Positions 8,988 to 20,904 of a DNA stretch of 64,000 nucleotides are shown piece by piece (positions within the stretch are counted from its first letter, which is position 1; every line of letters starts with the position of its first letter). Under the pieces are notes generated by a model. It searched no databases. It saw nothing but the letters and a program-made list of their open reading frames with translations, and had not been told where the DNA came from. The position numbers and the translations under genes were made by a program. Location: the NCBI RefSeq assembly GCF_000219215.1, contig NC_015723.1, positions 1,240,001 to 1,304,000 on the forward strand, in the 5' to 3' direction. Source of the stretch: Cupriavidus necator N-1. Lineage in GTDB: Bacteria; Pseudomonadota; Gammaproteobacteria; Burkholderiales; Burkholderiaceae.

Positions 8988-10355
8988 CTAGCGTGCAGCG
9001 GTATTCCCCACGGCACGGCGCAGACTGGCATCCGGCGGGCCCAGCTGCCCCTCATGCCGCCGCCCCAGCCACCACCCCAGTCCCGCCCACGCCAGCGCCA
9101 GCACCGCGCCAGCCAGCGCCACCGTGGCGGGATGGCCCGACAGCGCATCGATCCCCGTCTTGACCCACGCACTGACTGCATCGCCCGCACGGTAGACGGC
9201 GGTGTCGATCACGTTCTTGGCCTTGTACTTGGTCTCGGGATTGACCACGGTGAACAGCATCTCGCGCCCGGGGCGCAGCAGCGCGTATTCGCCGACACGG
9301 CGCAGGATCATCACGCCGGCCAGCACGCCGAAGGTCGGCAACAGCGCCAGTACGAGAAAGCCGCAGGCCACCGCCAGCGGCACCGCGGTCAGCAGTACCG
9401 AGACGCCATAGCGGCGCGCCATGCGGCCGGTGAAGAAGAGCTGGACCAGGATGGTCAGCGCCTGCACGGCAGCATCCAGCGCGCTGAAGACCTGGGTCTG
9501 GCGGGTGCGTTCCGGGAAGGCCTCGGCCACCAGCCGCGCCTGCTCGAAATACAGGAAGGTACTGGCCGTGGCCAGCAGGATCACGAACAGGCCGATGCCG
9601 AGCAGGTAGCGCGAGCGCAGCAGCAGCGACAGCCCGGCCAGCAGCCCGCCGCCGATCGGGTTGGCCGGATCCTGCGCCGCGCCGGCCGGGGCTTCGCCCG
9701 GCTGCACCACGCCCGCGCCGGCGCGGCGGCGCCAGCCGAACAGCCAGCCCACGCCGGGCAGCGTGGCGGCCAGCAGCGCGGCCGACAGCAGCATCAGTCC
9801 GGTCAGGCCGATCCGCGGCACCAACCAGCCGCCCAGCACGGGCCCGACCAGCCCGCCCGCGCTGGCGCCGGCGGCCAGCAGTGCGAACAGACGGCGCGCC
9901 TGCTCGGGGCGGAACACATCGGCCATCAGGCTCCATGCCACCGACACCACGAACAGGTTGAACACCGACAGCCAGACGTAGAACACGCGCGCCAGCCAGA
10001 CGTTGTCAGGCAGGGCGCGAGTGGCCAGGGCAAAGCCCAGGAGGTTGGCGATAAAGAAGGCGTACACCCAGGGCACGAAGCGGCGCCGCGGCAGCCTGGC
10101 GCAGATCGCGCCGTACAGCGGAATCGCGGCCAGCATCACGACAAAGGTGGCGGTGAACAGCCACTGCAGGTTCTTCACGCCGCCGGCAATGCCCATGGTC
10201 TCGCGCACTGGCCGCAGCATGAAATAGCTGGCGAACAGGCAGAAGAAAAACAGGAAGCCGGCCACCACGGCGCCGGTCTCGCCGGGGTGGATGCCGAAAC
10301 CGCGCCGCAGCCGGGCCAGGCCACCGGCAGGCGGGTCGCGCGCGGGATCGTCCAC
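8988..10355 (-). CDS. MFS-like transporter of the NTP/NTP-exchange (TLC-related) type
   Basis: A 455-residue polytopic membrane protein with about 12 hydrophobic segments. The N-terminal part (AGFLFFFCLFASYFMLRPVRETMG, broken by RP at about residue 48) and the later VGEYALLRPGREMLFTVVNPETKYKAKNVIDT motif resemble bacterial relatives of ADP/ATP translocases often annotated as NTP/NTP exchange transporters. The KYKAKN segment near 395 is typical of this subgroup. The gene follows the aldo/keto reductase gene by 12 bp on the same strand, so they are probably cotranscribed. The transported compound is unknown; the family name does not prove nucleotide exchange in free-living bacteria. Confidence 0.75.
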   Translation of the reverse strand: MDDPARDPPAGGLARLRRGFGIHPGETGAVVAGFLFFFCLFASYFMLRPVRETMGIAGGVKNLQWLFTATFVVMLAAIPLYGAICARLPRRRFVPWVYAFFIANLLGFALATRALPDNVWLARVFYVWLSVFNLFVVSVAWSLMADVFRPEQARRLFALLAAGASAGGLVGPVLGGWLVPRIGLTGLMLLSAALLAATLPGVGWLFGWRRRAGAGVVQPGEAPAGAAQDPANPIGGGLLAGLSLLLRSRYLLGIGLFVILLATASTFLYFEQARLVAEAFPERTRQTQVFSALDAAVQALTILVQLFFTGRMARRYGVSVLLTAVPLAVACGFLVLALLPTFGVLAGVMILRRVGEYALLRPGREMLFTVVNPETKYKAKNVIDTAVYRAGDAVSAWVKTGIDALSGHPATVALAGAVLALAWAGLGWWLGRRHEGQLGPPDASLRRAVGNTAAR

Positions 10356-10367
10356 GATCGATACGGC

Positions 10368-11303
10368 TCAGCGCAGCAGCGCGGCGATGCGCTCGCGCTG
10401 GCCGGGATCGGGCATGCGGCCCAGTCCGGCCCCAAGGTTGTCGGCCATGTTGCGCGGCTTGGAGGTGGCCGGGATCGCCGCGGTCACGGCGGGATGGCTG
10501 ACGATGAACTTCAGGAACAACTGGCCCCACGAGCCGCAGTCGATATCGCCGGCCCACGGTGGCAGCGGGCGGTCCTTGACGACGCGAAAGAGGCGCCCGT
10601 CCTGGAAAGGCCGGTTGACCAGCACCGCCACCCCACGCGCTTCGCACAGCGGCAGCAGCGTACGCTCGGCATTGCGCTCGGCCACGGAGTAGTTGATCTG
10701 GACAAAGTCCACGCGCTCGCTGCGCACGATCTTCTCCAGCGCCTCGTGCGCGTCCTCGCGGTAATGGGTGATGCCCAGGTAGCGAATGCGGCCCTGTTCC
10801 TTCAGCTCGCGCAGCCAGCGCAGGTTGGCCTGCCAGTCGATCAGGTTGTGTATCTGCAGCAGGTCGATCTTGTCCACGTGCAGGTCGGCCAGCGAGTGCG
10901 CCCATTGCGCCTGCGCGGGCGCGCCGGACTTGGCCGAGATCTTGGTGGCCAGGAACACCCGGCTGCGGGCATTGGCCGCGCGCAGCAGGTCGCCGGTCAC
11001 GGCTTCGGCGCTGCCGTAGCTGGGCGCGGTATCGACGACCGACCCTTCGCTCTGCAGAAGCAGGCCCATCACCTCCGCCAGCGGCTTGCGTTCATCAGCG
11101 CCGGTGCCGACGTTGAAGGTGTCGGCGGTGCCCATGCCGATCACGGGCAGGGCTTCGGTGGTGCCCGGGATGTTGCGGCGCATTGGCACGGCTACGGTGG
11201 CAGCGCCGGCGGGCAGGGCGGCGCAGGCGGCGAGGCCGGCGGCCAGGGCCAGGAAGGAGCGGCGATCTAGTGGCATTGGGACGGTTCGCGGCAGGTCACA
11301 CAC
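10368..11303 (-). CDS. Exported aldo/keto reductase (Tat-like signal)
   Basis: A 311-residue NADPH-type aldo/keto reductase fold. Recognisable elements are VVDTAPSYGSAEAVTGD (catalytic Asp and Tyr, about 90-106), FLATKISAKSG (catalytic Lys near 118), KIDLLQIHN (His near 150) and ITHYREDAHEALEKI. An N-terminal DRRSFLALAAGLAACAALPAGAA has the twin-arginine plus hydrophobic layout of a Tat signal, implying a folded, cofactor-loaded periplasmic enzyme. GTG at 11303 has AAGG 7 bases upstream; the alternative ATG at 11276 lacks a ribosome site. The downstream MFS-like gene begins 12 bp after the stop. The physiological substrate is unknown. Confidence 0.84.
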   Translation of the reverse strand: MCDLPRTVPMPLDRRSFLALAAGLAACAALPAGAATVAVPMRRNIPGTTEALPVIGMGTADTFNVGTGADERKPLAEVMGLLLQSEGSVVDTAPSYGSAEAVTGDLLRAANARSRVFLATKISAKSGAPAQAQWAHSLADLHVDKIDLLQIHNLIDWQANLRWLRELKEQGRIRYLGITHYREDAHEALEKIVRSERVDFVQINYSVAERNAERTLLPLCEARGVAVLVNRPFQDGRLFRVVKDRPLPPWAGDIDCGSWGQLFLKFIVSHPAVTAAIPATSKPRNMADNLGAGLGRMPDPGQRERIAALLR

Positions 11304-11444: not shown

Positions 11445-12806
11445 TCAGATCACCGTGGCCAGGCCCAGCGTCAGCAGCAGCGCCACCACCGAGATGATGG
11501 TCTCGCACACCGACCAGGTCTGGAAGGTCTGGGTCACGGTCATGTTGAAGTACTCCTTGACCAGCCAGAAGCCGCCGTCGTTCACGTGCGACAGGATCAG
11601 CGAACCGGCGCCGGTGGTCAGCACCAGCAGCTCCGGGCGGGTGCCCGGCACGCTGGCGGCGATCGGCGCGACGATGCCCGCGGCGGTGGTCATGGCCACC
11701 GTGGCCGAGCCCGTGGCGATGCGGATCATCACCGCCACCAGCCAGCCCAGCACCAGCACCGACACGTTGGCGCCGGTGGCGACGTCGACGATGGCGTTGG
11801 AGATGCCCGAGTCACGCAGGATGCGGCCAAAGCCGCCGCCGGCGCCGACCACCAGCGTGATGATAGCGGTGGGCGCCACGCACTCGTTGGTGAACTTGAG
11901 GATGGTCTCGCGGTTGAAGCCGCGCGCCTTGCCGAAGGTGTAGAAGCTCACCAGCGCGGCAATCAGCAGCGCCATCACCGAGTTGCCAATCAGCTTCAGG
12001 AAGTCGTTGGCAAAGGTCTTGGGCGTGGCGATGAGGTCTGCCCAGCTGCCGATCAGCATCAGGATCACGGGCAGCAGGATGGTGAACACGGTGATGCCGA
12101 AGCCCGGCAACTCATGCGATGCCTTGACGCGCTCATCCTCTTCGGTGAACTGCTCCGCCAGCGGGTTGATCTCGGGTAGCTTGACGTAGCGGTCCATCAG
12201 CTTGGCGAACAGCGGGCCAGCGAGGGCTGCCGTGGGAATGCCCACGATCAGCGCGTACATGATGGTCTTGCCGATGTCGGCGCCATAGGCGGTCACCGCC
12301 AGCAGCGCGGCCGGGTGCGGCGGGATCAGGCCGTGCACCACGGACAGGCCGGCCACCATCGGGATGCCGACCAGCACCATCGACGTGCCGGTGCGCTTGG
12401 CCACGTTGAAGGCGATCGGCACCAGCAGCACGAAGCCCACTTCAAAGAACACCGGCAGGCCGACGATAAAGGCGATGGTGGCCATCGCCCAATGCACGTT
12501 CTTTGCGCCGAAGAAATCGATCAGTGTGTTGGCGATGCGCTCGGCGCCGCCGGATTCGGCCATCATCTTGCCGAGCATGGTGCCCAGGCCGACCACCAGC
12601 GCGATATGGCCCAGCGTGCCGCCGACACCGGCTTCAAAGGACTTGACGATGTCGCCCATCGGCATGCCCACGGCAAAGCCGAGCAGCACTGAAACGACCA
12701 CCAGGGTAATGAAGGGGTTGAGCTTGAAGCGCGCGATCAGCACCACCAGTGCGATCACTGCGATCAGCGCATACACCAAGAGCGTGGTTCCGGTGACGGC
12801 ACCCAT
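11445..12806 (-). CDS. gntP: GntP-family gluconate-type permease
   Basis: A 453-residue inner-membrane H+ symporter of the GntP family, which carries gluconate and related sugar acids such as idonate, fructuronate and, in relatives, D-serine. Family features are FKLNPFITLVVVSVLLGFAVGMP near residue 27-49, the glycine-rich GGTLGHIALVVGLGTMLGKMM, the FFEVGFVLLVPIAFNVAK segment near 122-139, and HPAALLAVTAYGADIGKTI. It is last in an rpiR-deacylase-ridA-gntP transcript, separated from ridA by a palindromic repeat. With the divergent PLP enzyme, KDG kinase and KDPG aldolase, its likely cargo is an aldonate or amino-aldonate. The exact substrate is not visible in the sequence. Confidence 0.92.
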   Translation of the reverse strand: MGAVTGTTLLVYALIAVIALVVLIARFKLNPFITLVVVSVLLGFAVGMPMGDIVKSFEAGVGGTLGHIALVVGLGTMLGKMMAESGGAERIANTLIDFFGAKNVHWAMATIAFIVGLPVFFEVGFVLLVPIAFNVAKRTGTSMVLVGIPMVAGLSVVHGLIPPHPAALLAVTAYGADIGKTIMYALIVGIPTAALAGPLFAKLMDRYVKLPEINPLAEQFTEEDERVKASHELPGFGITVFTILLPVILMLIGSWADLIATPKTFANDFLKLIGNSVMALLIAALVSFYTFGKARGFNRETILKFTNECVAPTAIITLVVGAGGGFGRILRDSGISNAIVDVATGANVSVLVLGWLVAVMIRIATGSATVAMTTAAGIVAPIAASVPGTRPELLVLTTGAGSLILSHVNDGGFWLVKEYFNMTVTQTFQTWSVCETIISVVALLLTLGLATVI

Positions 12807-12866
12807 ATTGTCTCCTTGTGTGGAAAAAAGGCCGCTTGTGGCGGCAGGGGTTAGTTTTTAGTTTTT

Positions 12867-12894
12867 CCCCTCTCCCGCGGTAGCGGGAGGGGGG
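12867..12894. repeat. GC-rich palindromic intergenic repeat
   Basis: Two 12-base arms (CCCCTCTCCCGC and GCGGGAGGGGGG, loop GGTA) form a near-perfect stem in the 111 bp between ridA and gntP. Similar CCCTCTCCCGC palindromes recur between genes in betaproteobacterial and xanthomonad genomes, to my knowledge. On the minus-strand transcript it is followed by A residues, not U, so it is more likely a REP-like element or mRNA-stabilising stem than a terminator. Confidence 0.6.
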
Positions 12895-12917
12895 CACGCA
12901 ATCCGCAGGCAGCAGGC

Positions 12918-13310
12918 TCAGGCCGCCGGCTTCTTGTAGGCGATGCAGTCCACTTCGACCTTGCAGTCCACCACCATGCTCGACTGCACGCAGGCGCGCG
13001 CGGGCGGGTTGGCGCCGAAGTATTCCTTGAAGATCTTGTTGAACGAGGCGAAGTCGCGCGTGTCATCCAGCCAGACGCCGCAGCGCACGACGTGCTCGGG
13101 GCCGTAGCCGGCTTCGGCCAGGATGGCCAGCACGTTCTTGATGGCCTGGTGGGTCTGGGGCACGATGCCGCCGTCGATGACCTCGCCGTTGACCATCGGC
13201 ACCTGGCCGGAGACGTAGAGCCAGCCGTCGGCCGCGACCGCGCGGGCAAAGGGCATGTGCTGGCCGCCGGTGCCGGTGCCGCCTTCGACGCCGAATCGTT
13301 TGATGTCCAT
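12918..13310 (-). CDS. RidA/YjgF-family enamine/imine deaminase
   Basis: RidA proteins hydrolyse reactive enamines and imines such as 2-aminoacrylate that leak from PLP-dependent dehydratases. This 130-residue protein shows YVSGQVPMVNGEV near residue 32-44, TKNVL-like AIKNVLAILAEAGYGPEHVV, and the PPARACVQ motif whose Arg (about 105) binds the carboxylate in active family members. The Glu of VEVDCIAY follows near 120. Its place next to an amidohydrolase and opposite a PLP deaminase gene fits a role in finishing or detoxifying that enzyme's enamine product. The gene starts 51 bp after the deacylase gene. Family is secure; being a dedicated partner is inferred. Confidence 0.9.
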   Translation of the reverse strand: MDIKRFGVEGGTGTGGQHMPFARAVAADGWLYVSGQVPMVNGEVIDGGIVPQTHQAIKNVLAILAEAGYGPEHVVRCGVWLDDTRDFASFNKIFKEYFGANPPARACVQSSMVVDCKVEVDCIAYKKPAA

Positions 13311-13361
13311 GGGTACTCCTGGGATGGGTTGGATATGGGAAGGAAGAGGGCAGCGCGCTGG

Positions 13362-14834
13362 TCAGGCGGCGCCGAACTCAGGCCGCGAGCCTCGCGGCAG
13401 GAACCGGCCGGCGCGCACGCCGGTGGTCTGGCGCTGCTGCCATGACAGCTCGCCGTTGACCCAGACCGCGGCAATGCCCTCGGCCGGTTGCATGGGATCG
13501 GTAAAGCTGGCCGCATCGCGGATGGTGGTGGCGTCGAACAGCACCAGGTCGGCCCAGTAGCCTTCGCGCACGAAGCCGCGTTCCTGCAGCCCGAAGCGCT
13601 CGGCGGACATGCCGGTCATCTTGTTGACGGCCACCGACAGCGGGAACAGCTCGCGGTCGCGGGCGTAGTGGCCCAGCACGCGGGGGAAGGCGCCCCACAG
13701 GCGTGGATGCGGCAGCGGGTCGTTGGGCAGCCCGTCCGAGCCGACCACCGTGGCCGGATGGCTCAGGATGCGGTCGACGTCGGCGTCTTCCATGCAGTGG
13801 TAGACCGCGCCCGCGGGCATCAGCCGTCGCGCGGCTTCGTGCAGGTCTACCTGCCATTCGGCGGCGATATCGGCCAGCAGGCGGCCGCTCATTTCGGGCG
13901 CGCCTTCGGACCAGGTCACCATGATGTCGAAATCGCTGGTGACCTGCTTCAGGTCCAGCGTGGAGGAACTGGCGGTGTAGGGGTAGCAGTCGCAGCCCAC
14001 CGGCTGCCAGCGCTGCGCGCCGTCGAGCGCGTCCAGCACCTCGGTGCTGCGGCCCCAGTTGGCCACGCCCGCGCATTTCAGGTGCGAGATCACCACCGGC
14101 ACGCGTGCATGACGGCCGATGCGGAAGGCCTCGTCCATGGCGTCGAGGATCTCGGCGAACTCGCTGCGCAGGTGGGTGGCGTAGAGCGCGCCGGCCTTGG
14201 CCAGCGGTTCGGCCAGCGCCAGCACCTCATCGGTCGGCGCGCTGAACGCGTTGGCGTAGGCCAGGCCCGTGGACAGGCCCAGCGCGCCATGCTGCAGCGC
14301 TTCTTCCAGCTGTGCTCGCATTGCCGCGATTTCTTCCGGCGTGGCAGCGCGGTCGAAGCGGTCCATATGATTGCTGCGCAGCGCGGTATGGCCTACCAGC
14401 GCGGCAACGTTGACCGCGGGCTGCGCGGCTTCCACCGCATCGACGTAGCTTTTGAAATCCGGGTAGCGGAAGGCGTCGGCATGGCCGAGCAGGTTCATCG
14501 GGTCGGGCGGCTCGCCCGCCAGCGTCACCGGCGCGGCGCTGATGCCGCAGTTGCCGACCACCACCGTGGTCACGCCCTGCGACAGCTTGGGCGTCATCTC
14601 GGGCTGGCGCACCACGTTGGTGTCGTCGTGCGTATGCACGTCGATAAAGCCCGGTGCAAGGACCAGGCCGTCGCCTTCGACTACATGCGAGGCGGCGTCG
14701 GGATCGATCGCGCCGGCTTCATCGATGCGGGCGATGCGGCCGTCGCGCAGGGCCACATCGGCCAGGCGCGCGGCGGCGCCGGAGCCGTCGATCAGGGTGA
14801 CGCAGCGGATCAGGGTATCGAACAGGTGTGGCAT
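13362..14834 (-). CDS. N-acyl-D-amino-acid deacylase (amidohydrolase superfamily)
   Basis: Zinc-dependent removal of acyl groups from N-acyl D-amino acids. The 490-residue sequence shows the amidohydrolase HxH metal motif FIDVHTHDD near residue 66, the Cys zinc ligand in VVGNCGISAAP near 96, the metal-ligand His in THLRSEFAEI near 220, VVISHLKCAG near 250, and VGSDGLPNDPLPHPR near 365 typical of D-aminoacylases. It starts 2 bp after the RpiR regulator stop, so the two are coupled. Given the KDG kinase and KDPG aldolase opposite, an N-acetylated D-glucosaminate-like acid is a plausible substrate alongside ordinary N-acyl D-amino acids. Length and motifs are normal for the family. Confidence 0.88.
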   Translation of the reverse strand: MPHLFDTLIRCVTLIDGSGAAARLADVALRDGRIARIDEAGAIDPDAASHVVEGDGLVLAPGFIDVHTHDDTNVVRQPEMTPKLSQGVTTVVVGNCGISAAPVTLAGEPPDPMNLLGHADAFRYPDFKSYVDAVEAAQPAVNVAALVGHTALRSNHMDRFDRAATPEEIAAMRAQLEEALQHGALGLSTGLAYANAFSAPTDEVLALAEPLAKAGALYATHLRSEFAEILDAMDEAFRIGRHARVPVVISHLKCAGVANWGRSTEVLDALDGAQRWQPVGCDCYPYTASSSTLDLKQVTSDFDIMVTWSEGAPEMSGRLLADIAAEWQVDLHEAARRLMPAGAVYHCMEDADVDRILSHPATVVGSDGLPNDPLPHPRLWGAFPRVLGHYARDRELFPLSVAVNKMTGMSAERFGLQERGFVREGYWADLVLFDATTIRDAASFTDPMQPAEGIAAVWVNGELSWQQRQTTGVRAGRFLPRGSRPEFGAA

Positions 14835-14836
14835 GG

Positions 14837-15742
14837 TCAGTCTCCCAGCGGCTGGCGGCTGTCAGGGCCCCTGGCGGGGCCGCTTTCGCCGCGGTGGGTG
14901 TCCAGCACGTACTTGAGCCGGCGCAGGCGCTCCTTGCTCTGGTCCGGCTGCAACAGCGCGCATTGCGTGGCGAGCACGTCCAGCACCATCAGCATGGCGT
15001 AGCGCGATGCCGACGGCTTGAAAATGAAATCCGTCTCCAGCGTGCGCACCGGCAGCAGCACGTCGGCACGCGCGGCCAGCGGCGAGCCCAGCGCGGTCAC
15101 GGCCACCAGGCGGGCACCGTACTCGCGCGCGATATCGCAGCTGGCCAGCATCTCCGGCACGCGGCCGCTGGCCGAGAAGGCCAGCACCACGTCGTCGCGG
15201 CCCAGCGTGGCCGCCACCATCTTCTGCAGAAGCGCGTCCTGGTAGCTCGCCACCGGCTGGCCCAGGCGCGCCAGGCGATGGCGGGCCTCGTCGGCCATGA
15301 ACGACGAGCCGCCGCCCATGCCAAAAGCGTAGACCATGCGTGCACCAAGCAACAGGCGCGCGGCCTGTTCGATGCGCTGCGCATCCATCAGGCCGCGGTT
15401 GACTTCCAGCGCGGTGAGGATGTCGGCGTGGATGCTGTCGGCCAGCGTGGCCGGGGCGGCTTCACCGGCGGGAACGCTGCCGGGCTGCAGGAAGCGCGCG
15501 CCTACCGCGGTGGCCTGGGCCAGGCGCAGCTTCAGGTCGCGCACGTCGCGGCAGCCGATGGCCTTGGCAAAGCGCGTCACGCTGGCCTCGCTGACGCCGG
15601 CCTTGCGCGCCAGTTCATTGATGCTGGCGGCGGCCGCGCCGGCCAGGTCTTCCAGCACCACCTGCGCCACCTTCTGCTCGGCCAGGCGCAGCGCGGGGCC
15701 GCGCTCGGCGATGCGGGTCAGGATGTCAAAGGGCGCGGTCAT
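14837..15742 (-). CDS. MurR/RpiR-family transcriptional regulator with SIS domain
   Basis: A 301-residue regulator. An N-terminal RpiR helix-turn-helix occupies about 1-80 (LRLAEQKVAQVVLEDL, then SINELARKAGVSEASVTRFAKAIGC). The SIS sugar-phosphate domain (about 125-260) includes RMVYAFGMGGGSSFMADEARHR and VVLAFSASGRVPEM. RpiR regulators with SIS domains usually sense phosphosugars; KDPG or KDG is attractive here because the divergent operon makes and cleaves KDPG. It is the first gene of the minus-strand unit, and the 212-bp gap to the PLP enzyme gene holds an AT-rich near-palindrome that may be its operator. Activator versus repressor cannot be told from sequence. Confidence 0.9.
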   Translation of the reverse strand: MTAPFDILTRIAERGPALRLAEQKVAQVVLEDLAGAAAASINELARKAGVSEASVTRFAKAIGCRDVRDLKLRLAQATAVGARFLQPGSVPAGEAAPATLADSIHADILTALEVNRGLMDAQRIEQAARLLLGARMVYAFGMGGGSSFMADEARHRLARLGQPVASYQDALLQKMVAATLGRDDVVLAFSASGRVPEMLASCDIAREYGARLVAVTALGSPLAARADVLLPVRTLETDFIFKPSASRYAMLMVLDVLATQCALLQPDQSKERLRRLKYVLDTHRGESGPARGPDSRQPLGD

Positions 15743-15903
15743 GGGCGGCAGGTCTGGTCGGAAGACGGGTCGGATCGAAATGTGACGGAAGCTGCAGTGC
15801 CCGCGGGCAGGGGCTATAACTGTGATTGGCGCACGTGGCGGGTGCCAGTCGCGTTGTCCCGGCTAGCCCTTCCGGGCATCTGCGTGTTACTTTATAACAA
15901 GGA

Positions 15904-15921
15904 TGAAATATCTTATTTTCA
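15904..15921. promoter_or_regulatory. Candidate RpiR-type operator
   Basis: TGAAATATCTTATTTTCA is nearly symmetrical (TGAAA...TTTCA ends) and stands out as AT-rich in GC-rich DNA. It lies in the divergent intergenic region, about 160 bp upstream of the RpiR start and 46-63 bp upstream of the PLP enzyme start. TGAAA/TTTCA ends are common in RpiR-family sites. Assignment is by pattern and position only. Confidence 0.5.
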
Positions 15922-15966
15922 GGGCTATCATTACGTCAATCAGATTTTTTCAGGGTGATGACAAGC

Positions 15967-17235
15967 ATGCGTGAAATAAAGTATCAGGCCGGCGTGATCG
16001 ATCCGCTCAACAAGGCACTGGGCCGGATGGAAGGCCCGATCGCCCCGGATGCGGCCGGCCAGACCGGCTGGAACTTGTTGCAGGAAGAGTTGAGCCTGCC
16101 GGCCGCGGTGCTCTATGAAGACCGGCTTGCGCACAACCTGGAATGGATGCGCCGCTTCATGAACGAATACGGCGTGCAGCTTGCGCCGCACGGCAAGACC
16201 ACCATGGCGCCCAAGCTGTTTGCGCGCCAGCTCGGCGCCGGCGCGTGGGGCATCACGCTGGCCACCGCGCACCAGACCGCGGCCGCGCATGCGCACGGCG
16301 TCAAACGCGTGCTGATGGCCAACCAGCTGGTGGGCCGGCGCAATATGGAAATCATCGCTGACCTGCTGCGCGATCCGGATTTCGAATTCTTCGCGCTGGT
16401 GGACTCGGCCGCGCTGGTCGACCAGCTCGGCAAGTTCTTCCAGGAGCGCGGGCAGAAGCTGCAGGTGCTGCTGGAGCTGGGCGTGGAAGGCGGGCGCACC
16501 GGCGTGCGCGACGACGCGCAGCAGCAGGCCGTGCTGGACGCGCTGGCGCGCTGGCCGCAGGCGCTGTCGCTGGCCGGCGTCGAGATCTATGAAGGCGTGC
16601 TCAAGGAAGAAGCCGATATCCGCAAGTTCCTGCAGCGCACCGTGGCGGTGACGCGGCGGCTGGCACGGGAAGGCCGCTTCGGCCGCAGCCCTGTGGTGAT
16701 GTCGGGCGCGGGCTCGGCCTGGTACGACGTGGTGGCCGAGGAATTCGCGCGCACCGAGATCGGCGCGCCGATCGACATCGTGCTGCGCCCCGGCTGCTAC
16801 CTGACGCACGACGTGGGCATCTACCGCGCCGCGCAGCAGCGCATCCTGGCCAGCAACCCGGTCGCGCAGAAGATGCGCGAGGGCCTGCTGCCGGCGCTGC
16901 AGCTGTGGGCCTATGTGCAGTCGATCCCTGAGCCGGACCGCGTCATCATCGGCATGGGCAAGCGCGATGCGGCCTTCGACGCCGGCATGCCGATCCCGGC
17001 ACGGCTGTACCGGCCCGGCACCGAGGCGCCGGTGGACGTGCCCGCGCACTGGGAAGTCACCGGCATGATGGACCAGCACGCCTACCTGCAGGTCAAGCCG
17101 GGCGACGACGTTCAGGTCGGCGACATGATCGCCTTCGATATCTCGCACCCATGCCTGACTTTCGACAAGTGGCGCCATATCCCGGTGCTGGACCGCGACA
17201 TGCGCGTGATCGACATCGTGCAAACCTTCTTCTGA
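15967..17235 (+). CDS. D-serine dehydratase-like / D-threonine aldolase-like PLP enzyme (amino acid deaminase)
   Basis: Fold-type III PLP enzyme of about 422 residues. The Schiff-base lysine is in LAPHGKTTMAPKLF near residue 60. PLP-phosphate and substrate segments include EGGRTGVRD and SGAGSAWYDVV. The C-terminal ISHPCLTFDKW near 390-400 carries the His and Cys that bind zinc in eukaryotic D-serine dehydratase. I prefer ATG 15967 because GGTGAT lies 7 bases upstream; GTG 15955 and ATG 15958 are alternatives. It leads a three-gene operon with KDG kinase and KDPG aldolase. D-glucosaminate dehydratase of pseudomonads, which yields 2-keto-3-deoxygluconate, belongs to this enzyme type as I recall, and that activity would make the operon one linear pathway. 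A general D-serine deaminase remains possible. Confidence 0.82.
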   Translation: MREIKYQAGVIDPLNKALGRMEGPIAPDAAGQTGWNLLQEELSLPAAVLYEDRLAHNLEWMRRFMNEYGVQLAPHGKTTMAPKLFARQLGAGAWGITLATAHQTAAAHAHGVKRVLMANQLVGRRNMEIIADLLRDPDFEFFALVDSAALVDQLGKFFQERGQKLQVLLELGVEGGRTGVRDDAQQQAVLDALARWPQALSLAGVEIYEGVLKEEADIRKFLQRTVAVTRRLAREGRFGRSPVVMSGAGSAWYDVVAEEFARTEIGAPIDIVLRPGCYLTHDVGIYRAAQQRILASNPVAQKMREGLLPALQLWAYVQSIPEPDRVIIGMGKRDAAFDAGMPIPARLYRPGTEAPVDVPAHWEVTGMMDQHAYLQVKPGDDVQVGDMIAFDISHPCLTFDKWRHIPVLDRDMRVIDIVQTFF

Positions 17236-17248
17236 GGCAGGCAGCCCC

Positions 17249-18184
17249 ATGAGCATCGACATCCTGGCCTACGGCGAACCGCTGGTGGAGTTCAACCAGC
17301 AGCCCGACGATCCGTCGCGCTACCTGCAAGGCTTTGGCGGCGACACTTCCAACTTCTGCATTGCGGCTGCGCGCCAGGGCGCCAGCACCGGCTATATCTG
17401 CGCGGTCGGCGCCGACACCTTCGGCGAGCGCTTGCGCGCGCTGTGGACGCAGGAGCGGGTCGATACCCGCCACGTGCGCGTCGACCCGAGCGCGCCTACC
17501 GGGGTCTACTTTGTCTCGCACGACAACCACGGCCACCGCTTCGACTACCTGCGCGAAGGCTCTGCCGCCAGCCGCTACCAGCATGAGCATCTGCCGCTCG
17601 GCGCGATCGCCGCGGCGCGCTACCTGCACCTGTCGGGCATCAGCCTGGCCATCAGCACCAGCGCCTGCGATGCCGGGCTGGACGCGATGGAGCATGCGCG
17701 CAAGGCCGGCACCAAGGTCACGCTGGACACCAACCTGCGCTTGCGGCTTTGGTCGCTGGCACGCGCGCGCGGCATCATGCGCGAGGCCCTCATGCTGACC
17801 GATGTGTGCCTGCCCAGCTGGGATGACATCACCGTGCTGACCGGGCTGGACGACCGCGACGCCATCGTCGACTACCTGCTGGGCTGCGGCATCGGCCTGG
17901 TCGCGCTGAAGCTGGGCGAAGAGGGCTCCTATGTGGCCACGCCCGAGTCGCGCGCGCTGGTGCCGCCTTATCCGGTCAAGCCGATCGATGCCACCGGCGC
18001 CGGCGACTGCTTCGGCGGCAGCTTTGTCGCGCGCCTGGCCGCGGGTGCCGATCCGTTCGAGGCGGCGCGCTATGCCAACGTGGCCGCCGCGCTGTCTACC
18101 ACTGGTTATGGCGCGGTGGCGCCGATCCCCGACGCCCAGACCGTGCTGGGCCGGTTGGCGCAGTCAGTGTCGGTGATCGCGTGA
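17249..18184 (+). CDS. kdgK: 2-dehydro-3-deoxygluconate kinase (PfkB family)
   Basis: Phosphorylates 2-keto-3-deoxygluconate to KDPG. The 311-residue protein has the ribokinase/PfkB layout: early YGEPLVEFNQQP, GFGGDTSNFCIAAARQG (about 29-45, sugar-binding GG), TLDTNLRLRLW near 150-160 typical of KDG kinases, and the C-terminal ATP/catalytic motif DATGAGDCFGGSF near 248-260 with the general-base Asp. It starts 13 bp after the PLP enzyme gene and 69 bp before the aldolase gene, in the order of the presumed pathway. Other 2-keto-sugar acids remain possible substrates. Confidence 0.9.
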   Translation: MSIDILAYGEPLVEFNQQPDDPSRYLQGFGGDTSNFCIAAARQGASTGYICAVGADTFGERLRALWTQERVDTRHVRVDPSAPTGVYFVSHDNHGHRFDYLREGSAASRYQHEHLPLGAIAAARYLHLSGISLAISTSACDAGLDAMEHARKAGTKVTLDTNLRLRLWSLARARGIMREALMLTDVCLPSWDDITVLTGLDDRDAIVDYLLGCGIGLVALKLGEEGSYVATPESRALVPPYPVKPIDATGAGDCFGGSFVARLAAGADPFEAARYANVAAALSTTGYGAVAPIPDAQTVLGRLAQSVSVIA

Positions 18185-18253
18185 CCCGGTTGGCCTGAAA
18201 CTCCTGCTTCCCTGAACCCCTGCTTCTTCTGCACTCCTTATTCCGAGACAGCC

Positions 18254-18898
18254 ATGCAAAACCAGACTTCCCCGCTGCTTCAACGCCTTGCCGATGTGCC
18301 GGTGATCCCGGTGCTGGAGTTCCACTCGGTCGACGAGGCCCTGCACGTCAGCGAGGCACTGGTCACCGGCGGCTTGCCGCTGCTTGAGATCACGCTGCGT
18401 ACGCCGGTGGCGCTGGAAGCGATCAGGGCGGTGGCGGCAGCCTTGCCGCAGGCCTGCGTCGGTGCCGGCACGGTACTGAACGTCGAGCAGCTGCACGCCG
18501 TGCGCGATGCGGGCGCGCAGTTTGCCGTCTCGCCCGGCCTGACCCCGGCGCTGGCCGAGGGCGCGCAGGGCGCGGGCATCTCGCTGCTGCCGGGCGTGGC
18601 CACCGCGAGTGAGGCGATGGCGGCGCTGGAAGCCGGCTTCACCTTTCTCAAGTTCTTCCCGGCGCAGGCCGCGGGCGGCGTGCCGATGCTGAAGTCGCTG
18701 GGCGGGCCGCTGCCGCAGCTGCGCTTCTGCCCGACGGGCGGCATCGACGCCGCGCTGGCGCCGACCTACCTGGCGCTGCCCAACGTGGTGTGCGTGGGCG
18801 GTTCATGGGTGGTGCCCAAGGACGCCGTCGCCAGCGGCGACTGGGGCCGCATCCGCACGCTGGCCGAGCAGGCCAGGGCACTGCGCAACAAGGGCTGA
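18254..18898 (+). CDS. eda: 2-dehydro-3-deoxy-phosphogluconate aldolase
   Basis: Class I aldolase cleaving KDPG to pyruvate and glyceraldehyde-3-phosphate, the last step of the Entner-Doudoroff pathway. At 214 residues it has standard length. [13 protein letters not shown] is near residue 16, [12 protein letters not shown] holds the catalytic Glu near 43, CVGAGTVL is near 75, and the Schiff-base Lys is in [14 protein letters not shown] near 133. FCPTGGI forms the phosphate-binding turn. It closes the plus-strand operon and is followed by a strong intrinsic terminator. Because no edd/zwf is next to it, this copy may serve both this island and the general ED route. Confidence 0.95.
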
Positions 18899-19268: not shown

Positions 19269-20588
19269 TCAGGCGTGGGGCGCCAGCAGCTCCCGCGCGC
19301 GCTGCTGGATCGCCGCATGGGTCTGGAGCAGCCAGGCCGCGGGGAATGGCTGCGCCAGTAGGTAGCCCTGCACGCTGTGGCAGCCCCAGGCACGCACGGC
19401 CTCGAGCTGCTGGTGGGTCTCGACCCCCTTGGCACAGACCGACACGCCGGCGCCCCGGGCCAGCCGGCAGGCGGCGTGCAGGCTGTCGGCACGGTTGGCG
19501 GAATCACCGGGCCGGGGTGCATGGCCCAGCCGGCGGGCGTCCAGCGTGACGCTGTCCGGGTGCAGCGCCGCCAGCAACTGGCGGCAGCCCGGGCTGTCGT
19601 CGAAATCGCCCAGCGTCAGTTGCAGCCCGCGCCGGCGCAGGGCGGCAACGCGGGCAATGATGTCGGCGTCGGCCGGCACCGCGCTGGCCGACACTTCGAT
19701 GCACAGGCGGTCCGGTGCGATGCCGCCTGCGTCGATGGCGTGGGCCAGTGCCTCCACCATCTGCGGGCGGTGCAGCTGGGCGCTGGAGGCCAGCAGGGTG
19801 AATTGCAGCGGGGCCACGTTTTCGGCGGCGCGTACCAGCGGCAGCACGCTTTCCAGCAGCCAGCTGCCAATCCGGCCGACCAGCCCCAGCGACTCCACCG
19901 CCGGCAGGAAATCCTGCGGCGCCACGCGCCCGAGCGCCGGATGGTGCCAGCGCAGCCGCACGGTGTAGCCGCTGACCACGGCGCTGGCGAAGTCGGCGCG
20001 CGGCTGCAGCTGCAGGCTCAGTTCGCCGCGCTCCAGCGCATCGGGCAGGGCTGCCAGCAGGGGCGCGGTCGGCGGCGCGGCGGGCTTTTCGGCGCGCGCC
20101 AGGCCGTCGCCCCCCCGTCGATCGACCCGCAGCATGGCGTCCAGGGCCTGCTGCAGGCTGCGTTCCGCCGGGATATCCGGATGGTCGGTGGCCACGCCGA
20201 TGCTGCACGAAATAAACAGCTCGAAGCCGTCCAGCGCGAACGGCCGGGACAGGTCGTCGGCCAGCCGGCTGGCCACCGGGCCGGGGTCGGGCACGCCGTC
20301 CGGCAGCGCGGTAATGACCACCAGGTCTGCCGCCGCCATCCAGTGCATGATGGCGCCAGGCGGCAGCAGGCAGGCGATGCGTGCCTGCACGATGGCCCGC
20401 AGCCTCGCTGCGCGCCGGGGCCCCAGGGTTTCGCAGGCGCTGGCAAAGCGGTCCAGGCGGATAGAAAGGATCGTCGCTGGCTGCCCGGTGCCGGAGCGGC
20501 GTGCCGCAAGCGCGGACACCAGGGCGGACGGCTGCATCGCGCCAGGTGCGCCCGCGGCCGCGGCGATGTCATCGGCATCAGGATGCAT
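19269..20588 (-). CDS. Degenerate GGDEF-EAL-like protein, probably catalytically inactive
   Basis: About 439 residues from ATG 20588; longer starts read through unlikely sequence. The N-terminal part (about 20-165) looks like a GGDEF remnant without a GGDEF signature. The C-terminal 180-430 matches the EAL fold, but the catalytic residues are changed. The EAL stretch reads YTVRLRW instead of an ExLxRW motif, the DDFGTG loop reads GDFDDSPG, and the KxD site reads SVTLDA; CAKGVETHQQL keeps only part of the AEGVE motif. It likely no longer cleaves cyclic di-GMP and may bind it or a protein partner. No strong ribosome site is visible, so the start is uncertain. Confidence 0.78.
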   Translation of the reverse strand: MHPDADDIAAAAGAPGAMQPSALVSALAARRSGTGQPATILSIRLDRFASACETLGPRRAARLRAIVQARIACLLPPGAIMHWMAAADLVVITALPDGVPDPGPVASRLADDLSRPFALDGFELFISCSIGVATDHPDIPAERSLQQALDAMLRVDRRGGDGLARAEKPAAPPTAPLLAALPDALERGELSLQLQPRADFASAVVSGYTVRLRWHHPALGRVAPQDFLPAVESLGLVGRIGSWLLESVLPLVRAAENVAPLQFTLLASSAQLHRPQMVEALAHAIDAGGIAPDRLCIEVSASAVPADADIIARVAALRRRGLQLTLGDFDDSPGCRQLLAALHPDSVTLDARRLGHAPRPGDSANRADSLHAACRLARGAGVSVCAKGVETHQQLEAVRAWGCHSVQGYLLAQPFPAAWLLQTHAAIQQRARELLAPHA

Positions 20589-20904
20589 GGATGGTCTTGC
20601 GGGCAGCCTGTTGATGGCCGTGCGATGCCCGCGTCTCCCCGGTATCAGATTTGGTCGTTCGGCTGGCCGCTGGGGCGGCCGCCGGCGCTTGTCGTTAGGC
20701 CCTGGTGATCCATGCCTGCCACGGCCGCATGCGGGCCGCACAGGCGGATCATAAGCGAAGGGGAGGGGGCGGAACATTGCAAATTGCGCCAAGGTGACTT
20801 GGTCGCAACCTGCAACTTAATATGGATCAATATGGTCGGAATTGACCGTGATCCTGGATTGACGCCACCGCCGGAATCCGGCAGCGGCCGACTGGCTGGC
20901 CTGA
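20589..20904. other. Intergenic region (316 bp) upstream of the EAL-like gene
   Basis: No gene seen. It should hold the promoter of the minus-strand EAL-like gene and the end of the CorC-type transcript. The only clear structure is an interrupted inverted repeat at 20784-20808 (TTGCG-CCAAG / CTTGG-T-CGCAA), which has no T run. Confidence 0.5.

Follow-up and report, generated by a model that had tools for sequence, protein, structure and literature searches.

A predicted GntP-linked module for catabolism of the oxidised chitin sugar 2-acetamido-2-deoxy-D-gluconate in Cupriavidus necator N-1

The ong cluster, characterised in 2022 (Jiang et al.; PMC9537276) in the marine bacterium Pseudoalteromonas prydzensis ACAM 620, degrades 2-acetamido-2-deoxy-D-gluconate (GlcNAc1A), an oxidised sugar left by microbial chitin cutting. 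As described there, OngB deacetylates GlcNAc1A, OngC deaminates the resulting D-glucosaminate (GlcN1A) to 2-keto-3-deoxygluconate (KDG) and KdgK phosphorylates KDG, with aldolases of 2-keto-3-deoxy-6-phosphogluconate (KDPG) proposed downstream and kdgA belonging to the gene clusters of Vibrio, Klebsiella and Serratia. OngB, OngC, KdgK and OngD are each required for growth on GlcNAc1A, the role of the essential OngD being left open, and the RpiR protein OngR is a repressor, loss of which improved growth (PMC9537276). One betaproteobacterium, Achromobacter piechaudii, is named with the complete pathway in the Fig. 6 legend of that paper, and a glucosaminate deaminase and KDG kinase had been predicted for Cupriavidus/Ralstonia in 2010 (PMC2842291). 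Herein, we describe a seven-gene island from Cupriavidus necator N-1, contained in a 64 kb stretch of DNA (the window; C1:1240001-1304000; the genome, with four contigs, totals 8.48 Mb), which we read from its sequence, with a probability of roughly 0.8, as a GlcNAc1A catabolic module comprising a cytoplasmic ong core with its own carrier. The pathway itself is already known; what is added is the exchange of its carrier for GntP, its spread in Burkholderiaceae that mostly lack an AA10 match, a candidate operator and a shared aldolase.

The island occupies positions 11445–18898 and consists of seven intact open frames in a divergent arrangement, with approximately 210 bp separating rpiR from ongC. 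Open frames and family profile matches confirm the genes, coordinates, families and divergent layout proposed in a first-pass annotation of this DNA:

11445–12806, minus strand: GntP-family permease, predicted inner-membrane importer in the OngIT role (PF02447, 544.9 bits).
12918–13310, minus strand: RidA protein, OngD-like (PF01042).
13362–14834, minus strand: predicted OngB-type GlcNAc1A deacetylase, an amidohydrolase (PF07969; residues; tree).
14837–15742, minus strand: RpiR/MurR-family regulator, OngR-like (PF01418 (HTH_6) and PF01380 (SIS)).
15955–17235, plus strand: fold-type III pyridoxal phosphate (PLP) enzyme, OngC-like, predicted GlcN1A deaminase (PF14031 and PF01168).
17249–18184, plus strand: PfkB sugar kinase, predicted KDG kinase KdgK (PF00294).
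18254–18898, plus strand: KDPG aldolase Eda, the sole PF01081 match in the genome (TIGR01182; PF01081).

By this arrangement GntP would import GlcNAc1A, from which OngB, as its residues and phylogeny suggest, would release acetate and D-glucosaminate. At the level of family, OngC would then yield KDG and ammonia, with RidA probably speeding hydrolysis of the enamine/imine intermediate, and KdgK would make KDPG, to be cleaved by the only KDPG-aldolase match of the genome into pyruvate and glyceraldehyde 3-phosphate. Both divergent operons would probably be repressed by the RpiR protein, bound at an intervening palindrome, until a pathway or KDPG-like ligand frees it. The first-pass annotation had linked import, deacylation, deamination to KDG, phosphorylation and KDPG cleavage in the same order, and homology, residues and published precedent favour that chain, although an aldolase dedicated to it is unlikely. 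It could name no N-acyl-glucosaminate route with a dedicated deacylase; the ong pathway is such a route (PMC9537276).

The window deacylase looks like an OngB-type GlcNAc1A deacetylase. For comparison, both the structure of PpOngB (PDB 9kb1) and the residues separating OngB from D-aminoacylases have been reported (PMC12017989). Over aligned columns, the window protein shares 53.5 % identity with PpOngB, 63.0 % with PDB 9g5m and 49.2 % with the D-aminoacylase AfDam (1m7j). AfDam and BbDam (3gip) belong to the same family, and AfDam has metal-site residues in common with the window protein. The metal ligands of PpOngB are kept, as are its catalytic Asp and the residues reported to contact GlcNAc1A (E226, S290, S291, S292 and Q298), and 20 of 21 tested positions are identical, including A193, A256, S290, S292 and Q298. 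AfDam, in contrast, departs from PpOngB at seven of the 21 (79, 193, 256, 290, 292, 298 and 348), and its type of letters (F193, M256, G290, T292 and a non-Gln 298) is not found in the window deacylase, which has A, A, S, S and Q. The specificity position is reported to hold Leu298 in AfDam and Arg295 in BbDam (PMC12017989, our only source for the BbDam comparison), although our sequence alignment places an Arg of AfDam opposite Gln298, Leu298 being the structural assignment of that paper. Position 79 of PpOngB is Pro in the chain as printed, whereas the text of PMC12017989 gives Cys79. The closest solved relative (63 %), PDB 9g5m / 9gv8, is deposited as 'Amidohydrolase family protein', and no relevant paper was found for it; as PpOngB residues are present in 9g5m at all tested positions but 348, it is probably itself an OngB.

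These residues are retained amongst relatives. When the best 80 of at least 583 deacylase relatives were kept as loci, the nearest named of which is from Cupriavidus lacunae (98 % identical deacylase), A256, Q298 and E226 were present in 80/80, A193 and S291 in 79/80, S290 in 78/80 and S292 in 76/80. A tree of 40 rows (29 of these 80 loci, five loci from a class-wide sample, L102–L106, two paralogues from the same genome, three PDB chains and the window) groups the window with PpOngB and 9g5m on a side of 36 rows (100/100) and leaves AfDam, L106 and both paralogues (L107 and L108) outside it, albeit with midpoint rooting and with long-branch warnings for L108, PpOngB, L106 and L107. The paralogues (C1:1157499-1158944 and C1:2256024-2257421; 49 and 45 % identical, respectively) carry an AfDam-like F193/T292/R298 and are likely N-acyl-D-amino acid deacylases.

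The PLP enzyme has as its closest solved relative 3gwq, labelled 'D-serine deaminase' (633.9 bits), and displays a PHGKT motif at residue 78 and an HPC motif at residue 398, which we take to bind PLP and metal, respectively. It is 47.7 and 48.9 % identical to the OngC-like neighbours of two OngB loci linked to sodium:solute symporters (SSF). At family level (PF14031/PF01168), this OngC-like protein fits the earlier suggestion of a D-glucosaminate dehydratase. Such resemblances could also be accommodated by D-amino-acid salvage, in which N-acyl-D-serine or -threonine would be deacylated and then deaminated by D-serine dehydratase, the adjacent kinase and aldolase genes being unrelated. Relatives of OngB are D-aminoacylases, the label of 3gwq fits this account and published OngC deaminates D-serine and D-threonine besides GlcN1A (PMC9537276); for this last reason, D-serine activity of the PLP enzyme would not be enough to overturn the pathway. 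We nevertheless regard salvage as improbable, as positions 193, 256, 290, 292 and 298 have the letters of PpOngB and not those of AfDam, two other deacylases of the genome already carry the AfDam-like set, and the kinase and aldolase accompany the cluster in 12/12 Cupriavidus loci.

The wider neighbourhood is modular. Within 5 kb of OngB, the 80 loci contain RidA in 76 cases, RpiR in 74, OngC in 68, GntP in 28, KdgK in 24 and Eda in 20. All seven genes occur together in each of the 12 Cupriavidus loci, and the six from Herbaspirillum carry everything except a nearby Eda. Paraburkholderia (24 loci) has OngC in 24, RpiR and RidA in 23 each and an Eda relative in five, with GntP and KdgK in none, and the eight Caballeronia loci have OngC, RpiR and RidA only. 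A PLP gene is absent within 5 kb from 12 of the 80 loci, of which three are cut by a contig end, eight have it farther off and one shows none: this last, L080 (Pseudomonas viridiflava), has neither OngC nor RidA in the stretch around OngB, which limits the reading. For Bordetella and Achromobacter (eight loci), the OngC relative is approximately 6–7 kb from OngB. In the class-wide sample, seven of 369 genomes, including that of strain N-1, match PpOngB at E ≤ 1e-50, and surroundings were taken for five of the six others (L102–L106, with L096 left out); one match, L106, falls on the D-aminoacylase side of the tree despite an E-value of 1.8e-134, and neither KdgK nor Eda was found in L102–L106; both observations likewise limit the reading.

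With regard to transport, GntP is a candidate GlcNAc1A carrier. It matches TIGR00791 with 497 bits (cut-off 292.75), and the DsdX equivalog with 340.7 bits, under the cut-off of 618. No OngIT-like symporter of the sodium:solute symporter (SSS) family was found in the cluster, the carrier of which is GntP. In L104 and L105, GntP sits between OngC and RpiR, whereas in L102 and L103 an SSF protein adjoins OngB/RidA; GntP therefore appears to take the place of the SSS carrier of the ong cluster in this lineage, as well as in some others. Scanning neighbouring genes against Pfam in L035 and further loci revealed no clear carrier, with a major facilitator superfamily (MFS) protein near ongC in L035. 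GntP has no mention in the main texts of PMC9537276 and PMC12017989, although their supplementary tables may hold a GntP-type cluster, and we found no paper joining GntP, GlcNAc1A and Cupriavidus/Burkholderia, nor one uniting the annotation terms of the island.

Membership of the carrier in the gluconate:H+ symporter family would also suit a module for free D-glucosaminate, such as might arise when a membrane dehydrogenase oxidises glucosamine; a different N-acyl amino sugar acid would then be the substrate of OngB. Annotations from 2010 and 2013 do name glucosaminate degradation (PMC2842291, PMC3734047), yet the deacetylase with the PpOngB residue set shares the predicted operon and stays with the cluster, and we regard this account, too, as improbable.

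RidA aligns to solved RidA/YabJ proteins and keeps the Arg of the 'PAR' motif, presumably catalytic, and it is plausible that it clears the enamine intermediate. Set against the reading of the island as a GlcNAc1A module are a number of points. Two of the deacylase residues, E226 and S291, do not discriminate, since AfDam carries both, and at cavity position 348 the window protein has Cys rather than the Gly of PpOngB. Only 28 of the 80 loci have a GntP gene within 5 kb of OngB. Several family scores fall short of their cut-offs, namely RidA to TIGR00004 (95 bits; cut-off 106.25), KdgK to its best NCBIfam, the KDG/KDGal kinase NF040938 (188.4 bits; cut-off 400), and the regulator to its best NCBIfam, HexR (174 bits; cut-off 296). 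The OngC comparison was made only via 3gwq and SSF-linked neighbours, and the genome also contains a partial match to GH19 (over cut-off; 45 bits, 55 positions), considered below.

Between the two operons lie three further predicted features:

15885–15899: perfect 15 bp palindrome TGTTACTTTATAACA / TGTTATAAAGTAACA, a probable operator and the sole TGTTAN5TAACA site with ≤1 mismatch in the 64 kb.
15903–15931, plus strand: sigma-70-like match ATGAAA-17-TATCAT, for ongC-kdgK-eda (consensus match only).
15910–15939, minus strand: sigma-70-like match TTGACG-18-TAAGAT, for rpiR-ongB-ridA-gntP (consensus match only).

Homologous intergenic regions could be compared for the window and 63 of the 80 loci (17 were dropped, as ongC or rpiR was not found or they were not divergent at 30–900 bp). 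A site with ≤1 mismatch is present in 63 of these 64 (33 exact and 30 with one mismatch), against an expectation of 0.38 from mononucleotide shuffles, although these are not 63 independent events, as the palindrome was chosen from the regions counted and the regions are related. The exact palindrome occurs once each in 34 of 108 loci, two of which (L086 and L093) represent the locus of the window itself. It is probable that this element is the operator of the RpiR protein. Both promoter-like matches overlap, one per strand, between the palindrome and ongC (15903–15939). On the plus strand the palindrome would thus closely precede the −35, and on the minus strand closely follow the −10. The number of these matches, two against 0.8 expected in 7.7 kb, is not beyond chance. 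KDPG is bound by both HexR and RccR, and the 15 bp site of the latter, TGTAGTAAAACTACA, shares the form TGT-N9-ACA with the island palindrome (PMC5489143); we hypothesise KDPG or KDG as the ligand of the island regulator. A role for the palindrome as an Entner–Doudoroff regulon site was tested and gained no support, as no match with ≤1 mismatch exists in L109 or L110 (17–18 kb around two edd genes), and it was likewise not found in L111, around nagA. The 18 kb of L110 that hold the second edd also harbour a further gene of the RpiR family, the product of which is 36 % identical to that of the island and possibly regulates the Entner–Doudoroff pathway.

Eda matches TIGR01182 with 251.9 bits (cut-off 156.05) and is the single PF01081 match in the 8.48 Mb genome, within which two edd genes score over cut-off. 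For this reason the island aldolase probably also serves the Entner–Doudoroff pathway, and the idea of a dedicated aldolase was dropped. In Ralstonia eutropha H16, H16_B1213 is listed as the Entner–Doudoroff KDPG aldolase (PMC9636797), a KDPG-aldolase-dependent plasmid addiction system is cited (PMC11362209), and B1211-B1213, linked to the island operon by annotation only, show growth-phase induction on fructose (PMC3734047). Deletion of the island operon in Cupriavidus may consequently also block the Entner–Doudoroff pathway. Taken further, the sole aldolase match and the fructose induction might indicate that the operon is mainly an Entner–Doudoroff locus, kept for the only Eda that it carries and with its amino-sugar-acid genes secondary. 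This we consider highly unlikely: all six Herbaspirillum loci retain the other six genes without a nearby Eda, OngC remains with OngB in all eight Caballeronia loci that similarly lack one, and no palindrome of the island type (≤1 mismatch) occurs in the 17–18 kb around either edd gene.

As to where GlcNAc1A would come from, the genome has no match at E ≤ 0.001 to LPMO_10 (PF03067; the AA10 lytic polysaccharide monooxygenases, LPMOs), GH20 or GH18, searches that returned matches in one, four and six of 14 control genomes, respectively. The bacterium would thus scavenge GlcNAc1A made by other organisms. It also has one nagA match over cut-off, and this, together with the partial GH19 match, means that it may use N-acetylglucosamine itself. 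A family survey of 299 genomes, in which OngB was counted for 212 of 220 with a best E ≤ 1e-190 (eight weaker rows set aside; hand tally), found LPMO_10 in 51 and both in 44. LPMO_10 is therefore commoner with OngB than without (7/87 of the others), and yet 168 of the 212 OngB genomes have no match to it. For the genus of the window, OngB is present in 38/40 genomes (≥83 % identity) and LPMO_10 in 8/40, all amongst the 38, with one of these eight matches (G261) having an internal stop; 30 of the 38 thus have no AA10 match, and GH20 is found in 0/40. The LPMO searches covered AA10 alone, and GH18 was looked for in the strain's own genome only.

These counts extend the ong route, described mainly from AA10-carrying Gammaproteobacteria, to Burkholderiaceae mostly without an AA10 match, and the spread of OngB without AA10 suggests oxidised chitin sugars as a shared resource. 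More tentatively, and at odds we would place below even, GlcNAc1A use may be a widespread scavenging trait of Burkholderiales without AA10 chitin cutting of their own, the GntP-type ong core feeding on the LPMO products of others; with the sole KDPG aldolase of Cupriavidus encoded in an operon repressed by an RpiR that senses KDPG or KDG, chitin-oxidation products and Entner–Doudoroff flux would then share one gene and one switch.

Beyond the island, the gene just downstream of gntP (10368–11303, minus strand) encodes an aldo/keto reductase with a twin-arginine-like N-terminus by eye. In L002, L003 and L012 a relative of this reductase comes soon after gntP, and in L006, L008 and L009 it is some kb more distant. 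A membrane protein (8988–10355, minus strand) matches both the MFS and TLC ATP/ADP transporter families. On the opposite side, a gene for an EAL-domain protein of the c-di-GMP phosphodiesterase type (19269–20792, minus strand) adjoins eda and is kept beside the cluster in L001–L011, as identity drops from 85 to 48 %.

Compared with known systems, the D-glucosaminate phosphotransferase system (PTS) operon dga of Salmonella also leads from glucosaminate to KDPG, with PTS import and phosphorylated intermediates there, whereas the island relies on GntP for import and on a PLP enzyme of fold type III. Resemblance to the P. prydzensis ong cluster is closer, as the island has predicted counterparts of OngB, OngC, KdgK, OngD (RidA) and OngR (RpiR), those of KdgK and OngR at family level, with the same proposed chemistry and a putative repressor gene beside the catabolic genes. 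Differences concern the outer parts and the layout: P. prydzensis has the SSS symporter OngIT in place of GntP, the island is without the GH20 hexosaminidase OngA and its genome without an AA10 LPMO match, and, unlike in the ong cluster, no TonB receptor was found among the three flanking genes scanned. Whilst P. prydzensis has a single ongCRBD operon, ongC of the island is divergent from rpiR-ongB-ridA, and Eda is included, as is kdgA in the Vibrio, Klebsiella and Serratia clusters.

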